Positions 3,990-20,619 of a DNA stretch of 25,201 nt are shown here, one piece after another; positions within the stretch are counted from its first letter, which is position 1, and every line of letters starts with the position of its first letter. The translations under genes and the position numbers were made by a program. Source of the DNA: a virus; IMG/VR virus record IMGVR_UViG_3300036715_002351, positions 1-25,201 of that record. One strand, 5' to 3'. Below the pieces are notes generated by a model that was given only the letters and a program-made list of their open reading frames with translations, made no database searches and was not told the origin of the DNA.

Positions 3990-4406
3990 ATGATCAGAAT
4001 GAGCAACGCAGACGGGTTCTGGTGGACCCGAGACACGGAAACCTACCACGGTGGGCCTTGCGCGACGCGCGAGGAGGCCATCCGTGACGCCATCAACGAC
4101 GGCGACCTTGACGTTGGCGACGTCGTGACCACCGAGTGGTGCACGATCCGGCACATTGCCCTCTCCCAGTCGTTCGACGCGGACAGCTTCCTCGAAGGTG
4201 CGGAAGATGGCGCTGAGGACTTCTCGAACGAGGACGGCGAGCCGGTCTTTGACGTGTCAGGCGAGCAGAAGGCCGACCTGCAAGTCATGGTTCGCGCAGC
4301 CATCGACGAGTGGCAGAAGAAGCACAACCTGGGCTTCTCGTCCTGGTATTTCCACTCCTGCACTCAGGAGGAGCAGCATACCATCACCGAGGAGGACTTG
4401 AAGTGA
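3990..4406 (+). CDS. acidic hypothetical protein, 138 aa
   Basis: A 138-residue, strongly acidic protein (Asp/Glu-rich, for example EGAEDGAEDFSNEDGE at about 69-84) with several Trp and Cys residues. The charge could point to a DNA mimic or simply a small cytosolic phage protein; no family is recognised. The start is well supported by CAACGGAGGACCGAC before the ATG. It is the first gene after an operator-like site and begins a run of four overlapping genes (3990-5231). Confidence 0.75.
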   Translation: MIRMSNADGFWWTRDTETYHGGPCATREEAIRDAINDGDLDVGDVVTTEWCTIRHIALSQSFDADSFLEGAEDGAEDFSNEDGEPVFDVSGEQKADLQVMVRAAIDEWQKKHNLGFSSWYFHSCTQEEQHTITEEDLK

Positions 4407-4753
4407 AGAAGTGGATCTATATTCCTGGGGCGGGCGAGTTCCTAGGCGAAGGCACCTGGCACGAAGTGCGCGGCGACCTGATGGAACAGGACTTCGCCGC
4501 GTGCAAAGCGGCGAACTCCCTACCCGCGGTCTGGGAGGTTTCGGAAGCCGAGATTATTGCTGATCCGCGTGGCAAGGAACCGAACTTCATCATGCGCGCG
4601 GGCATGCTCGTGCACCAGTTCCACCGCGTCGCAATCGCTATCCCGGCCGTCGCTGATCAGCGCGCGATCCAGTTCGCGCGCCTCCAGCTGAAGGACTTCC
4701 TTGAGAAGGTCTTGGCGGTAGATGGCACGGTGAACAAGGAGTGCTCGTCGTGA
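4403..4753 (+). CDS. hypothetical protein, 116 aa (GTG start)
   Basis: Starts at the GTG at 4403, which overlaps the previous stop (GTGA) and has GGAGG eight bases upstream; the same frame is open further upstream but only inside the preceding gene. The product has no recognised motif and reads as a small soluble alpha/beta protein (KKWIYIPGAGEFLG at the N-terminus, a long helix near the C-terminus). The arrangement in the 3990-5231 unit is its only functional clue. Confidence 0.7.
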   Translation: MKKWIYIPGAGEFLGEGTWHEVRGDLMEQDFAACKAANSLPAVWEVSEAEIIADPRGKEPNFIMRAGMLVHQFHRVAIAIPAVADQRAIQFARLQLKDFLEKVLAVDGTVNKECSS

Positions 4754-4911
4754 AGTTCTGGTACTTCAATGCAGGCATGGTAACCGCCGTCGTCGTGCTA
4801 CTGGCTGGCTACGGACTTCACTCGTTGCAGGACGACATTGCCCGCGCGCGGCAAGGGCTCATTGTCACTTCGATCATCCAGGACATCCTCAACACTGGTA
4901 CCAAGAAATGA
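4750..4911 (+). CDS. small single-span membrane protein, 53 aa (GTG start)
   Basis: A 53-residue frame starting at the GTG that overlaps the preceding stop (GTGA), with AAGGAG eight bases upstream, and ending in an ATGA overlap with the next gene. Residues about 9-23 (GMVTAVVVLLAGYGL) form one short membrane segment; the rest is a polar helix. The length and the charged tail would fit a small inner-membrane modulator, but no family is recognised. It is easily missed because of its size and GTG start. Confidence 0.6.
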   Translation: MKFWYFNAGMVTAVVVLLAGYGLHSLQDDIARARQGLIVTSIIQDILNTGTKK

Positions 4912-5231
4912 TCATCTTCCGCAACGACGGAGTAGTGCCTATCGCGGCTTTCACCACCTTTGGCATGTCAGCCAAGCCTGGGTCGACCAACCCCAATGGC
5001 TTGTCCGCGACCGAGGAAGTGAAGATCGAGATGGAAGTGCACGCCTGGGCGCGCATCCTGAAACTGCTCGAGGACAACGAGGACGCGGCAGCCCCCGGTC
5101 TCCGTGAGCAGCTCGAGGAGGCGGGCTGGAAGGACGTCGAAAAGCAGTCCGAGGACGTCGAAGACGAGGACGAAGAGCCGCTCGTCGTCGCGCCCGTCGA
5201 GCTGGAGGCTATCGAGGATATGCCGTTCTAA
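4908..5231 (+). CDS. acidic protein ending in an SSB-like C-terminal tip, 107 aa
   Basis: A 107-residue protein. Residues 1-75 contain no recognisable OB fold. Residues 80-91 are almost all Asp/Glu, and the C-terminus is IEDMPF, very close to the conserved amphipathic tip of bacterial single-stranded DNA-binding protein (consensus DDDIPF), which docks on SSB partners such as helicases, exonucleases and primase. Seen: acidic linker and tip. Inferred: it may recruit or compete for SSB-binding host proteins, or be a diverged phage SSB. Start ATG 4908 overlaps the previous stop. It closes the replication/recombination block, which fits either role. Confidence 0.75.
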   Translation: MIIFRNDGVVPIAAFTTFGMSAKPGSTNPNGLSATEEVKIEMEVHAWARILKLLEDNEDAAAPGLREQLEEAGWKDVEKQSEDVEDEDEEPLVVAPVELEAIEDMPF

Positions 5232-5322: not shown

Positions 5323-7305
5323 ATGAACGACTTCCAAGCCTTCTCGAAAGCAGTCGAAGCGAAGTTCGCCGCCATGTCACAGGGTGAGCTCTTCGTCGTC
5401 GAGGTCGAAGACATCTTCGACTCCTACCTCGCGGCATTCCCTGCGGGATCGAACCCGATCTACCGCGAACGCACCGAGCACGACTGCTCCTGCTGCAAGC
5501 ACTTTGTGCGGCACCTGGGTCACGTCGTCGCGTTCGGCGCGGGTGACCAGCGCACGTCGATCTGGGACATTGACGGCCTACCCGAGCCCTACGCGACGGT
5601 CGCCGCGCGCATGTCGGCCCTGGTTGATCAAATGCCGATCAAGACGGTCTACCGCACGAAGGAGCACCGGTTCGGCATTGAATCGAACCTGGGACTGGTC
5701 GACGGTGAGACCCGCAAGTTTAACCACTTTGTCGGTCAGATCGCGTCGCGGCACTACGCAGCGGAACCCGACACCGCGCGGTCGAACCTTGAAGCCGTCG
5801 CGCAGGTCCTGCGCCGTGGCCTTGAGGAGCTCAAGATCGAGGCCTTCGATGCGGTACTCGACCTGATCGACTCGAAAGCAATCTACCGCGGTGCTGAGTT
5901 CCGTGAGCAGGTCACCTCGTTTAAACGGCTCGTCCAGGCGTTCGCGGTGAAGTCGCCGTCCGACCGCGAGGCCTTCGTCTGGGATCACCTGGACGAACCG
6001 GCTGCGCGCTTCCGGAACACTGCAATCGGAACACTGCTCGTGGACCTGTCCGAAGGTGTCGAGATCGAACACGCGGTGAAGTCCTTCGAGGCGAAGGTGG
6101 CGCCGACGAACTACAAGCGCCCGACCGCGCTGATCACGGCGAAGATGGTGGACCTTGCGGTAGCCAAACTGAGCGAGCTCGGATTGACGACTGCAGTTGA
6201 GCGTCGGTTCGCTCGCCTGTCTGACGTGACGGTGAACAACGTGCTCTGGGTGGACAACTCGGTCAAGGGCTCGATGAAGGGTGGAATTTCTGGTCTCTTG
6301 TCCGGCGACGTTAAGGTGCCGTCGGTCGACCTGCGGACGGCTTCGCTGATCATGATGGATGACTTCCTGACCGACGTGATCCCGACGGCGACCAGCATCA
6401 AGCTGGCCCTCGAGAACAAGCACCTGAGCAACTTCATGTCGCTCACCGCGCCTGTTCACCCGGACGCGGGGAACCTGTTCAAGTGGGATAACAACTTCGC
6501 TTGGTCTTACGACGGCGAGGTGACCGACTCGATCAAGGAACGCGTCAAGGCCGCGGGCGGTAACGTCACTGGCACGATGCGCGTCTCGCTCGGGTGGCAC
6601 AATTTCGACGACCTCGACCTCCATGTGATCGAACCCAACGGGAACCGAATCTCCTTCTACAACAAGTGCAACAAGCTGGACGTGGACATGAACGCGGGCG
6701 GCCATCATTCGCGTGATCCCGTCGAGAACGTGACGTGGCAAGGCAAGCTGGCCGATGGTGAGTACCAGGTCATCGTCAACCAGTACATGAAGCGGGAATC
6801 CGTTGACGTCGGGTTCACGCTCGAGGTTGAGTATGCCGGATACATCAAGCAGTACTCGATGCCGACGTCCCCGACTGGTGAACTGTACTGCCTCAAGCTG
6901 AAGGTCCAGTCGGGCAAGCTGGCTGAGGTCACCATGCTGAAGAAGATGACCGTCGGGTCGTCGTCGCAAGAGAAGTGGGGCGTATCGTCGCAGAGGCTCA
7001 TCCCGGTCGACACGCTGATGCTGTCCCCGAACTTCTGGGATGGGCAGACCATCGGCAACAAGCACTGGTTCTTCATGCTTCACGGCCTGAAGAACCCCAA
7101 CGCCACCCGCGGGATCTACAACGAGTTCCTGCGTTCGACCCTCGACCCGCACCGGAAGGTCTTCGAGGTGCTGGGCGCGCGGACCAAGTGCCTGCCTGCC
7201 GATGACCAGCTGTCTGGTGTCGGCTTCTCGTCAACCCGTGGCGACCGGGCTACCGTCGTCGTCAATGAGTCGGGCAAGTCCCACGCATTCAACGTCCAAT
7301 TCTGA
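5323..7305 (+). CDS. large phage protein with Cys cluster and DUF2135/YfaP-like domain, 660 aa
   Basis: The longest gene of the window. The N-terminus holds HDCSCCKHFVR (53-63), a compact Cys/His cluster that could bind zinc or iron. The middle (about 150-400) is mainly helical. Residues about 413-510 resemble the DUF2135/YfaP beta-domain: LGWHNFDDLDLHVIEPNG, then LDVDMNAGGHH, then GEYQVIVNQY. In cellular proteins that domain often accompanies von Willebrand A domains, but no MIDAS motif (DxSxS) is seen here. A GGAG Shine-Dalgarno supports the start. It is followed 11 bases later by a 138-residue partner, and the pair has its own promoter/operator. Similar long hypothetical proteins occur in many tailed phages; the function is unknown to me. 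Confidence 0.85.
   Translation: MNDFQAFSKAVEAKFAAMSQGELFVVEVEDIFDSYLAAFPAGSNPIYRERTEHDCSCCKHFVRHLGHVVAFGAGDQRTSIWDIDGLPEPYATVAARMSALVDQMPIKTVYRTKEHRFGIESNLGLVDGETRKFNHFVGQIASRHYAAEPDTARSNLEAVAQVLRRGLEELKIEAFDAVLDLIDSKAIYRGAEFREQVTSFKRLVQAFAVKSPSDREAFVWDHLDEPAARFRNTAIGTLLVDLSEGVEIEHAVKSFEAKVAPTNYKRPTALITAKMVDLAVAKLSELGLTTAVERRFARLSDVTVNNVLWVDNSVKGSMKGGISGLLSGDVKVPSVDLRTASLIMMDDFLTDVIPTATSIKLALENKHLSNFMSLTAPVHPDAGNLFKWDNNFAWSYDGEVTDSIKERVKAAGGNVTGTMRVSLGWHNFDDLDLHVIEPNGNRISFYNKCNKLDVDMNAGGHHSRDPVENVTWQGKLADGEYQVIVNQYMKRESVDVGFTLEVEYAGYIKQYSMPTSPTGELYCLKLKVQSGKLAEVTMLKKMTVGSSSQEKWGVSSQRLIPVDTLMLSPNFWDGQTIGNKHWFFMLHGLKNPNATRGIYNEFLRSTLDPHRKVFEVLGARTKCLPADDQLSGVGFSSTRGDRATVVVNESGKSHAFNVQF
5918..5927. 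repeat. CGTTTAAACG palindrome, copy 2 (intragenic)
   Basis: Identical 10-bp palindrome inside the 660-residue gene, contributing part of Ser-Phe-Lys-Arg codons. Unlike copy 1 it needs no rare codon. Confidence 0.55.
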
Positions 7306-11641: not shown

Positions 11642-11772
11642 TGGGCTACCTGCAGCAATATGGCATCCTGTGCCTCTTCGTCGTCGCGTTCGAACTGATG
11701 GGCCTTCCGCTGATCATGGGCATGGTCACGACGGCGGTGGGTTCGCTTGCTGAGTCGATTGCTGCTCACTGA
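11641..11772 (+). CDS. small membrane protein, 43 aa
   Basis: The second small membrane protein, starting at the ATG overlapping the previous stop, with GGGGGAG eight bases upstream. Residues about 8-32 are hydrophobic (GILCLFVVAFELMGLPLIMG), possibly one long or two short spans. No family is recognised. It ends the short unit driven by the 11164 promoter; a long non-coding region follows. Confidence 0.5.
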   Translation: MGYLQQYGILCLFVVAFELMGLPLIMGMVTTAVGSLAESIAAH

Positions 11773-11798
11773 TCGAGACACGCCTCCTGTGCCGTTCT

Positions 11799-11820
11799 GC
11801 GGTTGTTGCCTAGCAACCGT
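11799..11820 (+). terminator. hairpin after the 11239-11772 unit
   Basis: CGGTTG (11800-11805) pairs with CAACCG (11814-11819) over the loop TTGCCTAG. It stands 28 bases after the last stop codon of the unit, where a terminator is expected, but no T-run follows. The same TTGCCTA and GCAACC words occur in the promoter region at 7788-7812. Confidence 0.35.
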
Positions 11821-11901
11821 CATAGGCCTTGGTTCGCTTGCGCGGAGGCGTCTGGAGTATGTGGCGAACCAGGGATGGGCGTCCACCGTGCGAGAACGGT
11901 A

Positions 11902-11960
11902 GGGCTGGAAACTTCGTCTACAGTGGGGAATGAGCCCCGTCTGGGCGTGGTTTCCAGCCC
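11902..11960 (+). other. long structured stem-loop in the non-coding region
   Basis: GGGCTGGAAAC (11902-11912) is perfectly complementary to GTTTCCAGCCC (11950-11960). The 37-base interior contains a second hairpin, GGGG (11925-11928) with CCCC (11935-11938). An 11-pair perfect outer stem is unlikely by chance. It could be a small structured RNA, a strong transcription stop, or a DNA element of the adjoining repeat region. No coding frame is supported across it. Confidence 0.5.
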
Positions 11961-11974
11961 GCTTTCATTGGTGC

Positions 11975-12220
11975 GGTGATGCGGGCTGGCGATGCGTGCT
12001 TACGCGCGCGCGTGAGACGCAATTTGGAAAAAGGATTCTCGTGGAATCCGCTTGCATCGTCTGCATCATTTCTTAGTTGTCAATGGGTTAGCTGATGCGT
12101 GATGCAAGCGATGCGAGCGCATCACCAGAGATTGTGCTTTAGTTTCAATGGGTTTGGCGATGCAGACTTGCGGTATTAGGGTGCATCACCGTGGTGGTTT
12201 GACAGGGAATCCGGGGATTC
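11975..12220. repeat. GATGC/GCATC repeat cluster, candidate replication origin
   Basis: Ten copies of GATGC or its complement lie in 210 bases: GATGC at 11978, 11991, 12094, 12101, 12110, 12159 and GCATC at 12054, 12063, 12119, 12183. The longer word GGTGATGC/GCATCACC occurs three times. CAATGGGTT is repeated at 12081 and 12146. Two GGATTC/GAATCC inverted repeats (12033-12049 and 12207-12220) sit among or beside them, and the stretch is more AT-rich than its neighbours. No gene is supported. Iteron-like clusters of this kind are typical of phage and plasmid origins; that role is inferred. Confidence 0.5.
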
Positions 12221-12374
12221 TGTGCCAGGACTGAGTGATCAGGGGGATTTGTTGTTTTGAACGTCGCGCGAGTGCGTGCGTAAGGGCGGTTGAGATTCTA
12301 CCATTAGTAGGCGTCCGCACGCTGTTTCCATTCGCTGGCTGCCAGGTCGATCACGCTGAGACCTGCCTTCCTGG
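12221..12374. other. remainder of the non-coding region
   Basis: No convincing gene is seen. An open frame at 12235-12420 encodes a Cys/Arg-rich 61-residue product without Shine-Dalgarno and runs into the next promoter, so it is not annotated. Nothing else stands out. Confidence 0.4.
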
Positions 12375-12414
12375 TCGACGTTTCCAGAAAAGCAGGATAC
12401 AAGCGAGTTATCCT
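12375..12414 (+). promoter_or_regulatory. promoter/operator ahead of the packaging and modification genes
   Basis: TCGACG (12375-12380), 17 bases, TACAAG (12398-12403) form a moderate promoter. ACAAGCGAGTTAT (12399-12411) is a member of the palindrome family with one change, and AGGATA (12394-12399) with TATCCT (12409-12414) adds a second inverted repeat, as at 11115. The next gene starts at 12457. Confidence 0.5.
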
Positions 12415-12456
12415 ACTTGAGAAAGAGGATTAGAACACCTGCTTATGAGGTAGAAC

Positions 12457-12927
12457 TTGTCTGAAGAATTCAACGATGAACTGCCCATGGTGTTCTCCCA
12501 CAAGACGGTCGCGTCTGACGGATCCCAGCGCGGACTGCAACGTCGCGGAGTCAAGAACAAGCGTACTAAACTCATTGAAGAGTGCCGCGCGGCCGTCGAA
12601 CGAGACACCGGCATGAAGAACTGGGATCCCGTGGTCATGCTCGCCGTGATCTCGGCCCGGGCCTTCAGCGGTTATCCCGCGACCGACGAGAACGGCACGC
12701 CAATCCTGGACGCCGAGACGGGCAATCCCATCATGGTTCCACCCAATCCGGAGCTTGCCGCTGCCGTCGCGGCCAAAGCAGCCCCATATCTGCACTCTCA
12801 CCTGCGTCCCAAGGAGGTCGATCTCGACAAGGACGAAGACAAAGATCCAGGCGAGGTCAAGGAGCGAGTCCTGCAAGCGCTCGAGAACATGGGCGTCAAG
12901 GTTGTCCGCGATGAGGAGCGAACCTGA
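12457..12927 (+). CDS. possible terminase small subunit, 156 aa (TTG start)
   Basis: TTG 12457 is the best start (GAGGT five bases upstream); a later ATG would lose a conserved-looking segment and lacks a Shine-Dalgarno. The 156-residue product has a basic region (GLQRRGVKNKRTKLIEECRA, about 26-45), a helical core (WDPVVMLAVISARAF, about 56-70) and AAVAAKAAPYLHSHLRPKEV (about 100-119), a pattern seen in phage proteins annotated as small terminase subunits or DNA-binding proteins. The TerS call is inference from this pattern and from the terminase large subunit 3.2 kb downstream. The separation is larger than usual. Confidence 0.6.
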   Translation: MSEEFNDELPMVFSHKTVASDGSQRGLQRRGVKNKRTKLIEECRAAVERDTGMKNWDPVVMLAVISARAFSGYPATDENGTPILDAETGNPIMVPPNPELAAAVAAKAAPYLHSHLRPKEVDLDKDEDKDPGEVKERVLQALENMGVKVVRDEERT

Positions 12928-13182: not shown

Positions 13183-13431
13183 ATGGACAAGCTTGCAACT
13201 GCACTCCTGACCGCCCTCGCAGGCGTCGCACTCGTCTTCTTCGCGATCATCCTGGGCACCTTGATGGGCACTCTGGGTGGTTTGGTCGTCGGCCTATTCT
13301 TCTCGGACACGATCCTGAGCACCTTGCAGCGTTTCGGCGTCAACACCGCGGGACTCGCAATGTGGCAGCTGGGCGCCACGCTCGCCTTCAGCGGTGGGTT
13401 CTTCCGCGCCGTCGTGTCGAAGGCTTCCTGA
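13183..13431 (+). CDS. membrane protein, 82 aa (holin-like)
   Basis: An 82-residue protein with AAAGGA before ATG. Residues 5-40 are almost entirely hydrophobic and Gly-rich (ALAGVALVFFAIILGTLMGT, then LGGLVVGLFF) and a third segment follows at about 58-75, so two or three membrane spans are likely. Size and topology suit a holin, but no lysin gene is visible in the window. It could equally be an envelope protein of unknown role. Confidence 0.68.
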   Translation: MDKLATALLTALAGVALVFFAIILGTLMGTLGGLVVGLFFSDTILSTLQRFGVNTAGLAMWQLGATLAFSGGFFRAVVSKAS

Positions 13432-13432
13432 C

Positions 13433-13648
13433 ATGGACGCCGCCTTCTACCTTAGCTGGTTGAAGGCTGAGATCGAGGCGGCGTGGGTCGTCGCCTCGAC
13501 CTTCGAGCGCTTCATCGTGATCATCTCCGCCTTTACTGTGCCTTACGACGTCTGGCTTGGTAACTGGTTCGACCTGATCGTGGCAGCAGCTGCTATCACC
13601 TGGGTCTGGTATTCCATCAGGAGCAACATAGGCCCTGGCGACCTATGA
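13433..13648 (+). CDS. membrane protein, 71 aa
   Basis: ATG 13433 lies one base after the preceding stop. The 71-residue product starts with an amphipathic acidic helix and carries two hydrophobic segments (FIVIISAFTVPYDVWLG at about 27-43 and LIVAAAAITWVWYSI at about 48-62). It is probably co-expressed with the 82-residue membrane protein; the pair may form a holin/antiholin-like or envelope complex. The function is not shown by sequence. Confidence 0.65.
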   Translation: MDAAFYLSWLKAEIEAAWVVASTFERFIVIISAFTVPYDVWLGNWFDLIVAAAAITWVWYSIRSNIGPGDL

Positions 13649-13719: not shown

Positions 13720-14052
13720 ATGTCTGAACTGCACCTCGAGTTGAACTTGGGCGAGATCGTCCACCGAGCCGTGATCCAGGGTCTCGTCGATCTCGTCAAC
13801 GAGTTCCCGCGCTACCGGATGGCCGTGATCCTTGGCCTCCTGCGAGATGATCCAATCACGCGGTGCATGATCGCCGAGGAGCTGGGCGAGCAGGCTTACA
13901 AGGAACGCGACGTGGACAAAGCCGCCCAGGTGGATCTCGACCGCACCGACTTCCAGTCGAGGTCCCTGGACGAGAAGTCGTGGGACGAGATCATGCTCGA
14001 GGTCCTCGACCGTCTGCAGCACACCCCCGGTGGCAAAGGCATGGTCGCCTGA
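13720..14052 (+). CDS. hypothetical protein, 110 aa
   Basis: A 110-residue, mostly helical acidic protein with AAGGAA before ATG. Residues about 10-65 form several amphipathic helices (IVHRAVIQGLVDLVNEF, then MIAEELGEQAYKE). It has no recognised motif. It overlaps the SLOG-protein gene by one base (TGATG) and starts a five-gene coupled series (13720-16075) that includes DNA-modification enzymes, so a role beside them is possible. Confidence 0.7.
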   Translation: MSELHLELNLGEIVHRAVIQGLVDLVNEFPRYRMAVILGLLRDDPITRCMIAEELGEQAYKERDVDKAAQVDLDRTDFQSRSLDEKSWDEIMLEVLDRLQHTPGGKGMVA

Positions 14053-14396
14053 TGCGCGTCCTGGTCACAGGTGGCCGGGACTACATGGACAAGTCCCGGA
14101 TCTTCTCGGTGCTGGCTACGGTGCACGCGAAGCACGGTGTGACTGCGGTGATCCATGGCGGAGCCCGCGGCGCTGATCGGCTCTCCGGGGAATGGGCCCG
14201 CCTTCGTCGTATCCCGGAGGTCATCTACGAGGCCGATTGGGACAAGCACAAGAAGGGTGCAGGCTTCATCCGCAATGCTGAGATGCTGAGTGACGGACAA
14301 CCTGACTGCTGCGTCGCGTTCCCAGGTGGCAAAGGCACGGCCCACATGCTGGGCCTGATGCGCAAGAGCGGGTTGCCGCTGTGGGTGATCGAATGA
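14052..14396 (+). CDS. SLOG-fold protein of the YspA/DUF2493 family
   Basis: A 114-residue Rossmann-like protein. MRVLVTGGRDYMD (1-13) and VIHGGARGADRLSGEWAR (about 34-51) form the nucleotide-binding glycine motifs; FPGGKGTAHMLGLM (about 89-102) is the second glycine signature typical of DUF2493/YpsA-related SLOG proteins. SLOG members bind or process nucleotide derivatives, including cytokinin-activating LOG enzymes and sensors in anti-phage systems. ATG 14052 shares a base with the previous stop. Adjacent to a methyltransferase and a DpdA-like protein, it may bind or prepare a nucleotide for DNA modification; this is inference. Confidence 0.82.
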   Translation: MRVLVTGGRDYMDKSRIFSVLATVHAKHGVTAVIHGGARGADRLSGEWARLRRIPEVIYEADWDKHKKGAGFIRNAEMLSDGQPDCCVAFPGGKGTAHMLGLMRKSGLPLWVIE

Positions 14397-15139
14397 ACCT
14401 TCTCGAGCAGTACGATCACGAGCAGCTGCCTGCTCGACGTCGTGATGGGATCAAACGAACTGAGGTCGTCCTCTTGTTCAACGTCACACCTTATGCTCCC
14501 GAACCATGGGCCCGTCGAGGGTTCACCGTCCATTGCTACGACTTCCTGATCAAGGAGGAGCGCCGTGAGGTCGTCGGTAACGGGGTCGTCGTCTACCACC
14601 CGTGGGACAGTGACAAACCAGGCGCCCTAGACGCGCTGATCGAGGCGCACCCGCATCCTTGGTTCGTCGGCGGGTTCCCGCCGTGCACTGACCTGTCATC
14701 TGCGGGCAACGCATGGAGAGCCCGCAAGCTCGAGGCGAACCCGAACTATCTTGACGACGCGATGGCACGCCTCTACTTCGTGCAGCGCTATGCAGACGCC
14801 GTGGGCGCACCTTACTTCATCGAGAACCCAATCGGGAAGGCCTCAACGCTGTGGAGGAAGCGAGACTATCAGTTCATCCCGGCAGACTACGGTGGCTATC
14901 TACCCGAGGACGACGCCCATCCTGTCTGGCCTGACAAGATCCCACCCCGCGATGCCTACTCGAAGAAGACGCTCTTGTGGACGGGCAATGGCTTCGTGAT
15001 GCCGAAGAAGAAACCCGTGCCCATCATCACGTCACAGATAACCTGCTCCTTCTGGTTCAAGGACGTTGATGAGGAGAAGATCTACCGAAGCTCGAGCCCT
15101 CGTGGGTTCTGTGAAGCAATAGCAGAGGCAAACTCATGA
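14393..15139 (+). CDS. C5-cytosine DNA methyltransferase-like protein, 248 aa
   Basis: Residues 93-98 (GGFPPC) form motif IV with the catalytic Pro-Pro-Cys (Cys98), and FIENP (142-146) is motif VI with the base-binding Glu. KKTLLWTGNGF (191-201) resembles motif VIII, and SPRGFCEAIAEAN (235-247) resembles the C-terminal motif X. This supports an m5C methyltransferase-type fold. Motif I (usually DLFxGxGG) is replaced by LLFNVTPYAPEPW (27-39), so SAM binding is unusual or altered. The start overlaps the preceding stop (ATGA). At 248 residues it is shorter than typical m5C enzymes, with a small target-recognition region. It may protect phage DNA or modify cytosine in another way. Confidence 0.78.
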   Translation: MNLLEQYDHEQLPARRRDGIKRTEVVLLFNVTPYAPEPWARRGFTVHCYDFLIKEERREVVGNGVVVYHPWDSDKPGALDALIEAHPHPWFVGGFPPCTDLSSAGNAWRARKLEANPNYLDDAMARLYFVQRYADAVGAPYFIENPIGKASTLWRKRDYQFIPADYGGYLPEDDAHPVWPDKIPPRDAYSKKTLLWTGNGFVMPKKKPVPIITSQITCSFWFKDVDEEKIYRSSSPRGFCEAIAEANS

Positions 15140-15363
15140 GCAAGCATTCCTCCTTGATGCCCGACGACCGCGAGCGTCCCATGCCTTCGACGACCCGACT
15201 ACCCAAGAAGGTGGTGGTTGAGCAGAGGGCCCGACCTGGACGGGCTACCTTGTTCTTCCGTGACTGGACGAAGTTCGGTGCCTATGCGAACCTCAAGCGC
15301 GCCAACCAGGTGCTGAAAGCAAAAGATGCCGATCCCCACTTCGAGTACCGACTGCGCCCCTGA
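15136..15363 (+). CDS. basic hypothetical protein, 75 aa
   Basis: A 75-residue basic protein coupled to the methyltransferase by ATGA overlap, with AGAGG upstream. The C-terminal half (FGAYANLKRANQVLKAKDA) is helical and Lys/Arg-rich, compatible with nucleic-acid binding. It is placed exactly between the methyltransferase and the DpdA-like gene, so it may assist one of them. No family is recognised. Confidence 0.65.
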   Translation: MSKHSSLMPDDRERPMPSTTRLPKKVVVEQRARPGRATLFFRDWTKFGAYANLKRANQVLKAKDADPHFEYRLRP

Positions 15364-15367
15364 GCCC

Positions 15368-16075
15368 GTGCACTACTACGGGATGCCCCTATCGCCTGAC
15401 CGCTATTACCAGCACCTGCCGGATAGGGCCTTCTGCGCGTCGTTCTTCCACTGCAAGTACGACGTCAAGCACCTACCCAAGTCAGCTACGGCCCTGATGC
15501 TGGACAACGGGGCCTTTTCCGCTCACACCAAGGGCATCACCGTCGATTGGAAGGCCTACTACGCCTGGTGTGAGAAGCACCTCCGCGATGCGCGGGACTG
15601 GTGCGTCGTGCCAGACGTCATAGCAGGCACCGAAGAAGAACAGGACCTCCTTATAAAGGAGTGGCCATCCCACCTCCCAGGCGCGCCAGTCTGGCACCTG
15701 CATGAGACCCTTGACCGATTGAGGCACCTCGCACAGGAGCACCCACGGGTCTGCCTGGGATCTAGCAAGGCCTACTGGCATATCAGGTCGTCTATCTGGT
15801 TCGAACGCATGGATGCTGCGTTCGAGACCTTGGAGAGCCTCACAGAGAAGCCCAAGATCCACATGCTGCGGGGCTTGGGCGTGGTCGATCAATACCCCTT
15901 CACGTCCGCGGACTCTACCAACCTCGCGCGGTCGTTCAAGCATGTAGGCGACGACGAGGCTCACAATGTCGCGCGGTTGTTGATCATCCGGTCGAGAACC
16001 GAGTCTCTTATCCCACCCAAAACCTTCAGGAGGCGGAGCTCTTCGCTCCTTTTGCACGGTGGATGCTACTTCTAA
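15368..16075 (+). CDS. dpdA: DpdA-like 7-deazaguanine DNA transglycosylase
   Basis: A 235-residue protein resembling the phage DpdA family (TGT-like TIM barrels that swap guanine in DNA for preQ0-type 7-deazaguanines). Matching blocks are LMLDNGAFSAHTKG (43-56), WCVVPDVIAGTEEEQDLL (78-95, with the likely catalytic Asp), PVWHLHETLDRL (107-118), HMLRGLG (165-171) and SADSTN (180-185). Start choice: GTG 15368 just after the previous stop gives the family-like N-terminus MHYYGMPLSPDR; ATG 15326 would overlap the previous gene and add 14 unlikely residues. The C-terminus is Arg/Ser-rich. No preQ0 synthesis genes are in the window, so the base would come from the host or from elsewhere in the genome. 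Confidence 0.72.
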   Translation: MHYYGMPLSPDRYYQHLPDRAFCASFFHCKYDVKHLPKSATALMLDNGAFSAHTKGITVDWKAYYAWCEKHLRDARDWCVVPDVIAGTEEEQDLLIKEWPSHLPGAPVWHLHETLDRLRHLAQEHPRVCLGSSKAYWHIRSSIWFERMDAAFETLESLTEKPKIHMLRGLGVVDQYPFTSADSTNLARSFKHVGDDEAHNVARLLIIRSRTESLIPPKTFRRRSSSLLLHGGCYF

Positions 16076-16179: not shown

Positions 16180-17652
16180 GTGCCATTAGACCTTTCCACC
16201 GTTCACTCCTCGGTCATTGACGAGGAGAACCTAGGCGCGTCTATGCGTCGCCTTGGGATCACGATGGACTACTTCCGGCAGCACCCGGATCAGGTGCCGA
16301 TCTGGATCGAAGAGCTCGGCGACGAGCTCATGTTCAAGCTGGTCACCGATTGGAAGTTCCTCGCCCGGGACGAGCAGCTGCCCCCGACCGACGTCTACAA
16401 ATTCTGGCTCTACATGGCAGGACGCGGTTCGGGTAAGACCCGCACGGGCGCCGAGTGGACGAAAGACCTCATTCGCCTCGGATACAACCGTGGGGGCCTG
16501 ATTGCGCCTACCGCTGCCGACGTGCGGGACGTCATGGTGGAAGGAGAGTCGGGTCTCATTGCCGTCTGCAACGCCTGGGACCGCGACATCAACGGGAACC
16601 TGATGGGGCGACCCCTCTACGAGCCGTCCAAGCGTCGCGTGACGTGGGAGAACGGCGCGATGGTCACCCTCTACTCGGCGGATGAACCCGAGCGTCTGCG
16701 CGGACCCCAGCACTCCTTCCTATGGATGGACGAGCTTGCGGCATGGCGCCGCATGGAGACCTTCGACCAAGCCATGTTCGGCCTTCGCCTTGGTAAGAAG
16801 CCAAAGGTCTTCATCTCGACGACGCCCAAGCCCAAGCCCCTGGTGAAGCGCCTGTGGGCTCGCGCGATGAACCCGGCAGACCTGGAAGTGGTCGTCACCA
16901 CCGGCTCGTCCGAACGCAACGCGGTCAACCTCGCCCCGGGAGTGATCGAAGAACTCCGGGAGATGTACTCGGGTAGCCAGCTTGGGCGGCAGGAACTCGA
17001 TGGTGTCCTCCTTGAGGAACTCGAAGGTGCCCTGTGGGCCCGGACGACTATCGACGGTAACCGGTATGACGTCATGCCGACCCTGCTCGACCCGCAGTTC
17101 TACTTCCTGCGTATCGTGGTGGGGGTCGATCCCGCGACGACGGACAAGGATGGCTCAGACGAGACGGGCATCATCGTTGCGGCCCTTGGGTCAGACAACC
17201 ACGCTTATGTGCTAGCCGACTACTCAGGCAAGTACTCGCCCGCGGCCTGGGGAAAGCGCGTGGCGGAAGCTTTCGCGACGTGGCAGGCGGACGTTGTGGT
17301 GGCCGAGGTCAACCAAGGCGGTGACATGGTGAAGCACGTCCTGGAAGGGGCGGATGCCATGATGCCGGTGAAGATGGTGCACGCATCGCGCGGCAAGATC
17401 GCACGAGCAGAGCCCATTGCCCAGAAATACGAGCAAGGCAAGGTGCACCACGTCGGGCGTGCCGTGATGAAGGTGGACGGATCGAAGAACGACGGGCACC
17501 TGGACAACCTTGAGGACCAGATGTGCACTTGGGAGCGCCTGTCGGCCTCCTATTCTCCCGACCGCATTGACGCCCTGGTGTGGGCGATCCACGAACTTAT
17601 GATCGCCGGCGAGAAGGAGATCGTTACGTCGCGCCTGCGTGGTACTCACTAG
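16180..17652 (+). CDS. terL: terminase large subunit
   Basis: A 490-residue DNA-packaging motor. The ATPase half has Walker A GRGSGKTRTG (81-90), Walker B FLWMDELA (180-187) and the coupling motif STTPKP (213-218). The RNase H-like nuclease half has VGVDPAT (314-320), AEVNQGGDM (375-383) and DRIDALVWAI (461-470), which hold the catalytic acids. It cuts concatemers and pumps DNA into the prohead through the portal. GTG 16180 is chosen: AAGGA lies upstream, while ATG at residue 22 has no Shine-Dalgarno. The gene has its own promoter and ends facing the minus-strand island. The portal gene is 3.4 kb away rather than adjacent, because of that insertion. Confidence 0.95.
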   Translation: MPLDLSTVHSSVIDEENLGASMRRLGITMDYFRQHPDQVPIWIEELGDELMFKLVTDWKFLARDEQLPPTDVYKFWLYMAGRGSGKTRTGAEWTKDLIRLGYNRGGLIAPTAADVRDVMVEGESGLIAVCNAWDRDINGNLMGRPLYEPSKRRVTWENGAMVTLYSADEPERLRGPQHSFLWMDELAAWRRMETFDQAMFGLRLGKKPKVFISTTPKPKPLVKRLWARAMNPADLEVVVTTGSSERNAVNLAPGVIEELREMYSGSQLGRQELDGVLLEELEGALWARTTIDGNRYDVMPTLLDPQFYFLRIVVGVDPATTDKDGSDETGIIVAALGSDNHAYVLADYSGKYSPAAWGKRVAEAFATWQADVVVAEVNQGGDMVKHVLEGADAMMPVKMVHASRGKIARAEPIAQKYEQGKVHHVGRAVMKVDGSKNDGHLDNLEDQMCTWERLSASYSPDRIDALVWAIHELMIAGEKEIVTSRLRGTH

Positions 17653-19840: not shown

Positions 19841-20395
19841 TCACACCTCCCCGCGACGATGCGCGGCGCGCACGGCCTCGGCCAGCATGTCCGCGTCGTC
19901 CTGAGTGTGATCGGTGCCACCGAAGTTCATCACCTCATAGTAGCGCATCACCTCGCCTAGGTCCTTCGAGTCGGTGCGCATCTGCGGGAAGGAACCACGC
20001 AGGAAGTACCGATGGTCGAGCTCTGAGAGCTGGGACCACAGGTAGCCCTGGTAGGCAATCTCGTCATCCCAGTAGGCGCGCAGGGCGTTGATCCGCTGCT
20101 GACCGTCAATCAGGATATTGGTCAGGCGAGGTGGCAGCGGGTCAGTCGAGAAGTTCACCGAGTAGGTGCCAATCGGGATCCCCATCCACACCGAGTGGAT
20201 CAGCTTGACCTGCTGAGCTTCCGACCAGACGAGACCCCGCTGGAAGTCGGGGATCACCATCCCACAGAGCAAGGGGAGACCAAGGGGGTTATAGAACTCA
20301 GCCCGCTTTTCCTTCTCCTTGTTGAAGAGCAAGGAGTCGAGGCTGAAAGCCATCGAACGGGCGAACATGAGGGGCTTGGGGCGGACGAAGGTCAT
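19841..20395 (-). CDS. DUF262 (ParB-like/GmrSD N-terminal) protein, 184 aa
   Basis: IPDFQRGLVWSEAQQ (48-62) and ILIDGQQRINAL (94-105) are the two DUF262 signatures; DGQQR is the conserved nucleotide-binding/hydrolysis motif of the ParB/Srx-like fold. NFGGTDHT (157-164) matches the third conserved block. DUF262 forms the N-terminal (GmrS-like, NTP-using) part of type IV restriction enzymes such as GmrSD; the DUF1524 HNH nuclease part is absent here, so this is a stand-alone unit of normal length for phage versions. The start at 20395 is preceded by AAAGGAAC. With the 271-residue gene it may form an anti-phage exclusion or counter-defence module. Confidence 0.82.
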   Translation of the reverse strand: MTFVRPKPLMFARSMAFSLDSLLFNKEKEKRAEFYNPLGLPLLCGMVIPDFQRGLVWSEAQQVKLIHSVWMGIPIGTYSVNFSTDPLPPRLTNILIDGQQRINALRAYWDDEIAYQGYLWSQLSELDHRYFLRGSFPQMRTDSKDLGEVMRYYEVMNFGGTDHTQDDADMLAEAVRAAHRRGEV

Positions 20396-20409
20396 GTTAC
20401 TGGTTCCTT

Positions 20410-20619
20410 TCAGACGTTCTCGACGTGGACGGACAGCCCGTTCGCGTCGACGGCATAGATCATGGTGTGCTTGTCGTGGATCGCCTTCTGCAGGCACTCC
20501 GCGTGCGATGCGTGACGGGTCACGGTGCGCTTGGAACCCAGACCGCGGACGCAGGTCCATTCGACGGCGTTCGCCATCACGTTCAGTTCATGCTCGGTAC
20601 GTTCGGTGGGTTTCGGCAT
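20410..20619 (-). CDS. hypothetical protein, 69 aa
   Basis: The start at 20619 has the leader ATCAACGGAGACTGAC. The 69-residue basic protein has TEHELNVMANAVEWTCV at the N-terminus and a beta-like C-terminus (HTMIYAVDANGLSVHVENV). His/Lys/Cys residues are frequent, but no zinc-finger spacing is clear. It is 15 bases upstream of the DUF262 gene on the same strand, and likely in one transcript. Confidence 0.68.
   Translation of the reverse strand: MPKPTERTEHELNVMANAVEWTCVRGLGSKRTVTRHASHAECLQKAIHDKHTMIYAVDANGLSVHVENV

Follow-up and report, generated by a model that had tools for sequence, protein, structure and literature searches.

The question raised by this locus is whether five closely spaced genes next to a terminase form one DNA-modification cassette, as an earlier note had proposed, and what the transglycosylase-like enzyme encoded by the last of them does. 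The DNA analysed (hereafter the window) is a viral record of 25,201 bases, a fragment of a marine-type phage related to Nanhaivirus. Its large terminase subunit (TerL) is 82% identical to that of Dinoroseobacter phage R26L, 80.5% to that of Pseudanabaena phage Pan1 and 59.5% to that of phage R5C, all three of which are placed in Nanhaivirus. Protein comparison showed that the window is collinear with the genomes of R26L and Pan1. The shared order runs from the helicase through the exonuclease, VRR-type nuclease, dNTP diphosphohydrolase, small-terminase (TerS) position, small hydrophobic ORFs and ORF1 to TerL and the portal. The gene at the TerS position has homologues at the equivalent place in R26L (E 3e-57) and Pan1 (2e-56), and also in R5C.

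All five ORFs reported for 13720-16075 proved genuine: their coordinates and plus-strand orientation were confirmed, the family matches of three of them lie far above chance, and the site adjoins the terminase, as had been stated. The features of the region are presented in Table 1. The SLOG gene starts with an ATG that overlaps the end of ORF1 as TGATG. For the methyltransferase-like gene, a GTG at 14381 is a possible start, but the ATG at 14393, which overlaps the SLOG stop codon as ATGA, fits better; the basic ORF begins with an ATG in the same ATGA arrangement with the methyltransferase-like gene. The DpdA-like gene starts with a GTG 4 nt past the preceding stop codon, and its homologues start at a matching V/M-IHYHG. 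Of the five, the SLOG protein alone matched a family above its cut-off in searches of Pfam, NCBIfam and PADLOC, and scanning the window for Rfam families and tRNAs gave no match.

Table 1. Genes of the TerS-TerL block in the window, with the basis of each assignment.
Feature	Coordinates	Strand	Basis
TerS-like gene (small-terminase position), left border of the block	12457..12927	+	name inferred from position
Small ORF with hydrophobic stretches, kept in Pan1	13183..13431	+	hydrophobicity read from sequence
Second small ORF with hydrophobic stretches, kept in R26L, Pan1 and R5C	13394..13648	+	
ORF1 (pI 4.7), core gene of the block	13720..14052	+	homologues in relatives
YAcAr/YspA-type SLOG protein, accessory gene 1	14052..14396	+	PF10686, phrog_289
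Divergent phrog_757 C5-methyltransferase-like protein, accessory gene 2	14393..15139	+	profile and fold
Basic 75-aa protein (pI 10.7), core gene of the block	15136..15363	+	homologues in Pan1 and R5C
235-aa short-form DpdA-like transglycosylase, phrog_887, accessory gene 3	15368..16075	+	profile, fold, motifs
Terminase large subunit (TerL), right border of the block	16180..17652	+	identity to Nanhaivirus TerL

Three further observations concern the rest of the window. Directly upstream of the TerS-position gene, about 0.8 kb (11642-12456) holds no convincing gene; in R26L, R5C and Pan1 the corresponding gap measures about 0.4-0.6 kb. This stretch is possibly a packaging or control site. A 660-aa protein (5323-7305) belongs to phrog_1735 (E 1e-229), a profile that assigns no function; it lacked a Pfam match, and the comparison with R26L and Pan1 yielded no homologue. 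On the minus strand, the protein encoded by 19841-20560 includes the beginning of a GmrSD/DUF262 N-terminal domain (PF03235, 54 bits); it has a homologue in R26L and weak matches to defence-family models.

The last protein of the run had been described as DpdA-like with a barrel resembling that of tRNA-guanine transglycosylases (TGTs), and the description held. It matched phrog_887 (E 9e-45) over residues 3-191 and keeps the motifs LDNGAF, PDVI, VWH and SADST intact. The putative active-site residues D46 (in LDNGAF), D83 (in PDVI), H110 (in VWH) and D182 (in ADS), whose roles are assigned by analogy with TGT, are invariant in 59 family members and present in the window protein. Structure prediction was needed because a sequence search of solved structures, made with the short-DpdA profile, the methyltransferase-like protein and canonical DpdA, gave no true match. 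The AlphaFold2 model, obtained with the 59 members aligned, reached a pLDDT of 88.6 and a pTM of 0.86. A Foldseek search without realignment placed TIM barrels such as tryptophan synthase alpha above TGT (best TGT E 0.05). After VIA realignment of the top 1000 chains, the best 50 were all of the TGT fold (Z 14.5-15.5, 206-224 residues aligned), with archaeosine TGT at Z 15.5, Cap10 of CBASS at 15.3 and bacterial TGTs at 14.5-14.7. Structure prediction, which had been named beforehand as the test of the description, thus gave the TGT fold, an assignment made from the VIA realignment and the sequence profiles, the Foldseek matches to TGT being weak.

When the DpdA-like protein was compared by profile with the canonical Nanhaivirus DpdA, a probability of 94.7 (E 6e-8) was obtained over 139 aligned columns, and the motifs correspond in pairs (short/canonical: LDNGAF/LDSGAF, PDVI/LDVI, VWH/VYH and ADS/GDS). 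A profile of eight short members likewise finds the canonical DpdA of R26L, of Pan1 and of viral record G003, whose enzyme is 70% identical to that of R26L (E 4e-7 to 1e-4). Judged by these profile comparisons, the window protein is homologous to canonical DpdA and, with its 235 aa, is not a member of the canonical class, whose enzymes (of the 9g, CAjan, Dp-1 and R26L type) have ~430 aa. Pseudanabaena phage Pam5 (44% identity) and Rhizobium phage RHph_N3_2 (40.6%) provide proteins of similar length that are among its best matches. The enzymes of Pantoea phage MED16 (36.5%) and Salmonella phage 7-11 (36%), which belong to the DpdA/TGT_1 cluster of the MED16 paper and are of the PHROG 887 type, are related to it over nearly the full length; they share LDNGAF...PDVI/PDII...ADS and a C-terminal segment, R..I.R...E...PP, that is also found in HK106. 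Codon use is coding-like over most of the gene and ambiguous after 15953. A frameshift near the 3' end was considered, as the last ~37 residues depart from a Pam5-like profile and an alternative frame ends in ...LQEAELF, which by eye looks family-like. The profile favoured neither frame, and the suspicion was dropped; the frame-0 tail aligns with MED16, HK106 and 7-11.

The genomic surroundings of the family point to 7-deazaguanine metabolism. Of 82 viral loci with a short dpdA, 54 have a gene for preQ0 synthesis or transport (VUT/YhhQ, QueD or QueE) within 1 kb of it, as against 0 of 80 control loci of phrog_757, the family of the methyltransferase-like protein; the contrast gives a Fisher p of 2e-22, which serves as a guide only, since the loci are partly close relatives. 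VUT/YhhQ-type genes account for 42 of the loci, QueD for 11 and QueE for 2. A preQ0-type gene was also present within the fetched flanks at 16 of 43 loci from bacterial genomes, and Vut_1 was found in 15 of 33 larger records. None of these 33 records has QueC, and the only match to canonical DpdA among them is a weak one that falls on the short-form gene of HK106; no examined record contains both forms. Because the family usually stands beside a transporter or a partial pathway, short DpdA probably uses a salvaged or host-made base. In Pam5 and RHph_N3_2 a VUT/YhhQ-type transporter gene comes immediately after the short dpdA or one gene further on, whereas the window, which covers part of a genome, has no preQ0 gene or transporter. 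Such a neighbour is common in the family but does not define it, as the MED16 paper reports dpdA alone for that phage. A different viral contig carries two short-DpdA genes on one strand, about 0.7 kb apart (L074:3544-4233 and L074:4893-5672).

The DNA of two phages with family members has been analysed by LC-MS: dADG amounts to ~0.13% of G in MED16 (PMC8306585) and ~0.02% of G in 7-11 (PMC6884629), trace levels that were measured without deletion of the short dpdA. As most of the enzymes tried still digested the dADG-containing DNA of MED16, strong protection from restriction is not established for the short-DpdA family. Taken together, the predicted TGT barrel, the preQ0-gene neighbourhood and the dADG in these two phages make it well supported that the window carries a short-form DpdA.

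The relatives of the window phage add a second transglycosylase to this picture. R26L and Pan1 encode QueD, QueC, FolE, QueF, QueE and a canonical DpdA of 433 aa; R5C also has a canonical DpdA, and five queuosine genes have been described in it (PMC5454422). By collinearity, the corresponding segment would lie outside the contig, ~7-17 kb left of the first gene in the window. The canonical Nanhaivirus enzyme, which is related to the DpdA of Dp-1, is encoded amid FolE, QueC, QueD and QueF, whereas the 235-aa window protein, a distant homologue with motifs in common that aligns with it over the central 139 columns, is encoded at the TerS-TerL site. Since in the close relatives both the preQ0 pathway and a canonical DpdA are encoded beyond the span of the contig, the short DpdA is probably a second transglycosylase, and, to judge from gene order in the relatives, the complete genome of the window phage is likely to have both forms. 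This would set it apart from MED16 and 7-11, in which dpdA stands alone and is thought to depend on host preQ0.

A first alternative is that the short protein acts on tRNA, putting preQ0 or preQ1 into host or phage tRNA. Its fold is that of the tRNA-guanine transglycosylases, and in the publications on R5C and Pan1 the queuosine genes of these relatives are taken to serve tRNA modification. Bacterial TGT is defined by a CxCxxC..H zinc site near the C-terminus. The 235-aa window protein, when its sequence was read directly, was found to have no CxCxxC zinc-binding segment; moreover, its profile relationship is with DpdA, and dADG occurs in the DNA of phages that have family members. We therefore consider a tRNA target unlikely.

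The position of the gene was then compared with the TerS-TerL block of the relatives. ORF1, described in the earlier note as an unknown helical protein, has homologues in R26L (7e-29), Pan1 (2e-24) and R5C (2e-11), as well as in two other viral loci (L098 and L099) and, weakly, in a third (L100); the basic ORF has homologues directly before TerL in Pan1 (6e-15) and directly after TerS in R5C (1e-19). Neither matched a known family. R26L, Pan1 and R5C keep ORF1 in the block, and Pan1 and R5C the basic ORF, without the three enzyme genes, so both ORFs belong to the TerS-TerL block and not to a modification cassette. No homologue of the SLOG, methyltransferase-like or DpdA-like protein was found between TerS and TerL in R26L or Pan1, and these three genes are therefore accessory. 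In L100, a SLOG gene stands alone between the ORF1 homologue and TerL, which, together with the absence of the cargo from R26L and Pan1, identifies the TerS-TerL interval as a variable cargo site. The five ORFs are thus not one unit; cargo genes are interleaved with core genes, and a core gene, the basic ORF, stands between the methyltransferase-like and DpdA-like genes.

Our preferred reading is that the short DpdA is a TGT-fold phrog_887 enzyme that would exchange guanine in DNA for a 7-deazaguanine base. The base would be preQ0 or a derivative, as suggested by the dADG of phages with family members, and would replace a small share of the guanines. It would be supplied by the phage's own FolE, QueD, QueE and QueC, encoded beyond the contig as in the complete relatives, and the short enzyme would act beside the 433-aa canonical DpdA as a second transglycosylase. 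Its gene is accessory cargo, lodged with the SLOG and divergent methyltransferase-like genes among the conserved small genes between TerS and TerL. We give this reading as a whole a probability of about 0.6. A bolder version, in which two DNA transglycosylases on one phage use the phage-made base to place two marks or to serve two site specificities while the SLOG protein senses the nucleotide pool or the base, is a speculative possibility that we would put forward with little confidence.

The SLOG assignment was borne out by a match to YAcAr PF10686 of 78 bits (E 5e-22; gathering score 28.2) and by a match to phrog_289, and the GGARGAD and RN motifs are intact by eye. The protein is an ordinary member of the YAcAr family, and about 1000 phage records were matched. 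A YAcAr/SLOG gene annotated as GTP-binding is also present ~1.1 kb upstream of the short dpdA in Salmonella phage 7-11 (L208:1479-1829), the only other SLOG/short-DpdA pairing seen. As SLOG was found at none of the 82 short-DpdA viral loci, we claim no general link between SLOG and DpdA despite the case of 7-11.

The methyltransferase-like protein, too, belongs where the earlier note had put it: it matched phrog_757 (E 3e-48), and when its AlphaFold2 model (pLDDT 88.3) was realigned with VIA, the best 50 chains were all C5-cytosine methyltransferases (top Z 12.8). It keeps GFPPCTD, with the PPC of motif IV and the catalytic Cys, and the ENP of motif VI. Motif I of the SAM-binding loop has been lost through D30N and G33P, both at positions at least 90% conserved in the family. 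A single-sequence scan of viral records gave no close relative. The PHROG 757 proteins of Shfl1 and other Drexlerviridae, an orphan 'DNA methyltransferase', are 37-44% identical to it and share the C5-methyltransferase fold, PPC and ENP; in place of the conserved D..G of motif I the window protein has N..P, and it lacks the LGGKS element. Demonstrated activity of the family was not found in a literature search. Only one other locus examined (L088) has a phrog_757 methyltransferase near a short DpdA; there the two genes, at 4316-4996 on the plus strand and 6329-7033 on the minus strand, are separated by 1.3 kb that includes a VUT-type transporter gene.

These losses bring up a second alternative, namely that the DpdA-like and methyltransferase-like genes are fast-evolving or inactive remnants of enzyme cargo decaying in a variable site. 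Both proteins are outliers in their families. Of 84 conserved columns, 29 are altered in the methyltransferase-like protein, those of motif I and LGGKS among them, against 15 in the sampled member that comes next; the comparison set consists of the best matches of one search and may understate the spread of the family. The DpdA-like protein departs at 18 of 67 family-conserved positions, the most among the sampled relatives, of which the next two depart at 17 and 10; in the tree it is a long-branch singleton with 4.0 changes per column. Decay is nevertheless quite unlikely in our view, given that the frames are open and closely spaced, that codon use is coding-like over most of the DpdA-like gene, that the putative catalytic residues of the DpdA-like protein are intact, and that both models fold with a pLDDT above 88.

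The proposal that the SLOG protein, the C5-methyltransferase and DpdA form one modification system, giving a doubly modified genome, fares worse. Three genes in a single stretch, joined by start/stop overlaps and adjoining TerL, do suggest a system, and PPC and ENP are retained in the methyltransferase-like protein. No second instance of the trio was found, however: neither SLOG nor DpdA occurs near 80 phrog_757 methyltransferases, one methyltransferase and no SLOG gene occur near 82 short DpdAs, and in the window itself a core gene parts the two enzyme genes. Because the methyltransferase-like protein has lost the motif I residues, even with its catalytic Cys kept, the doubly modified genome is not supported; LGGKS is missing as well, and the phages of the short-DpdA family show dADG only in traces (0.02-0.13% of G; PMC6884629, PMC8306585). 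We judge a single system to be very improbable. The earlier reading was accordingly right about the enzyme families, and its grouping of the genes into a system fails on comparative grounds.

A counter-defence role, in which the short protein would act on a 7-deazaguanine-modified protein in the manner of Cap10, a TGT-like protein of type IV CBASS, is hardly credible: the complex of Cap10 and modified CdnD ranks third among the structural matches (9ntn, Z 15.3, rmsd 3.5, 222 residues), but TGT structures lie within 1 Z of it, which amounts to a tie, nothing in the sequence links the protein to Cap10, and the neighbourhood of the family and dADG indicate base metabolism and DNA.

Each of the enzyme types found here is already known, and the trio of SLOG protein, methyltransferase and DpdA was seen in no other locus examined. 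The short DpdA family is widespread and little characterised, and the frequency of preQ0 genes beside it is a concrete ground for regarding it as a genuine family of 7-deazaguanine enzymes, often working on a salvaged or host-made base. A phage with both a canonical and a short DpdA, if this proves true, would make it possible to compare their specificities on a single genome. The case also shows that an overlapping gene run may look like one system and yet mix core genes with unrelated cargo.
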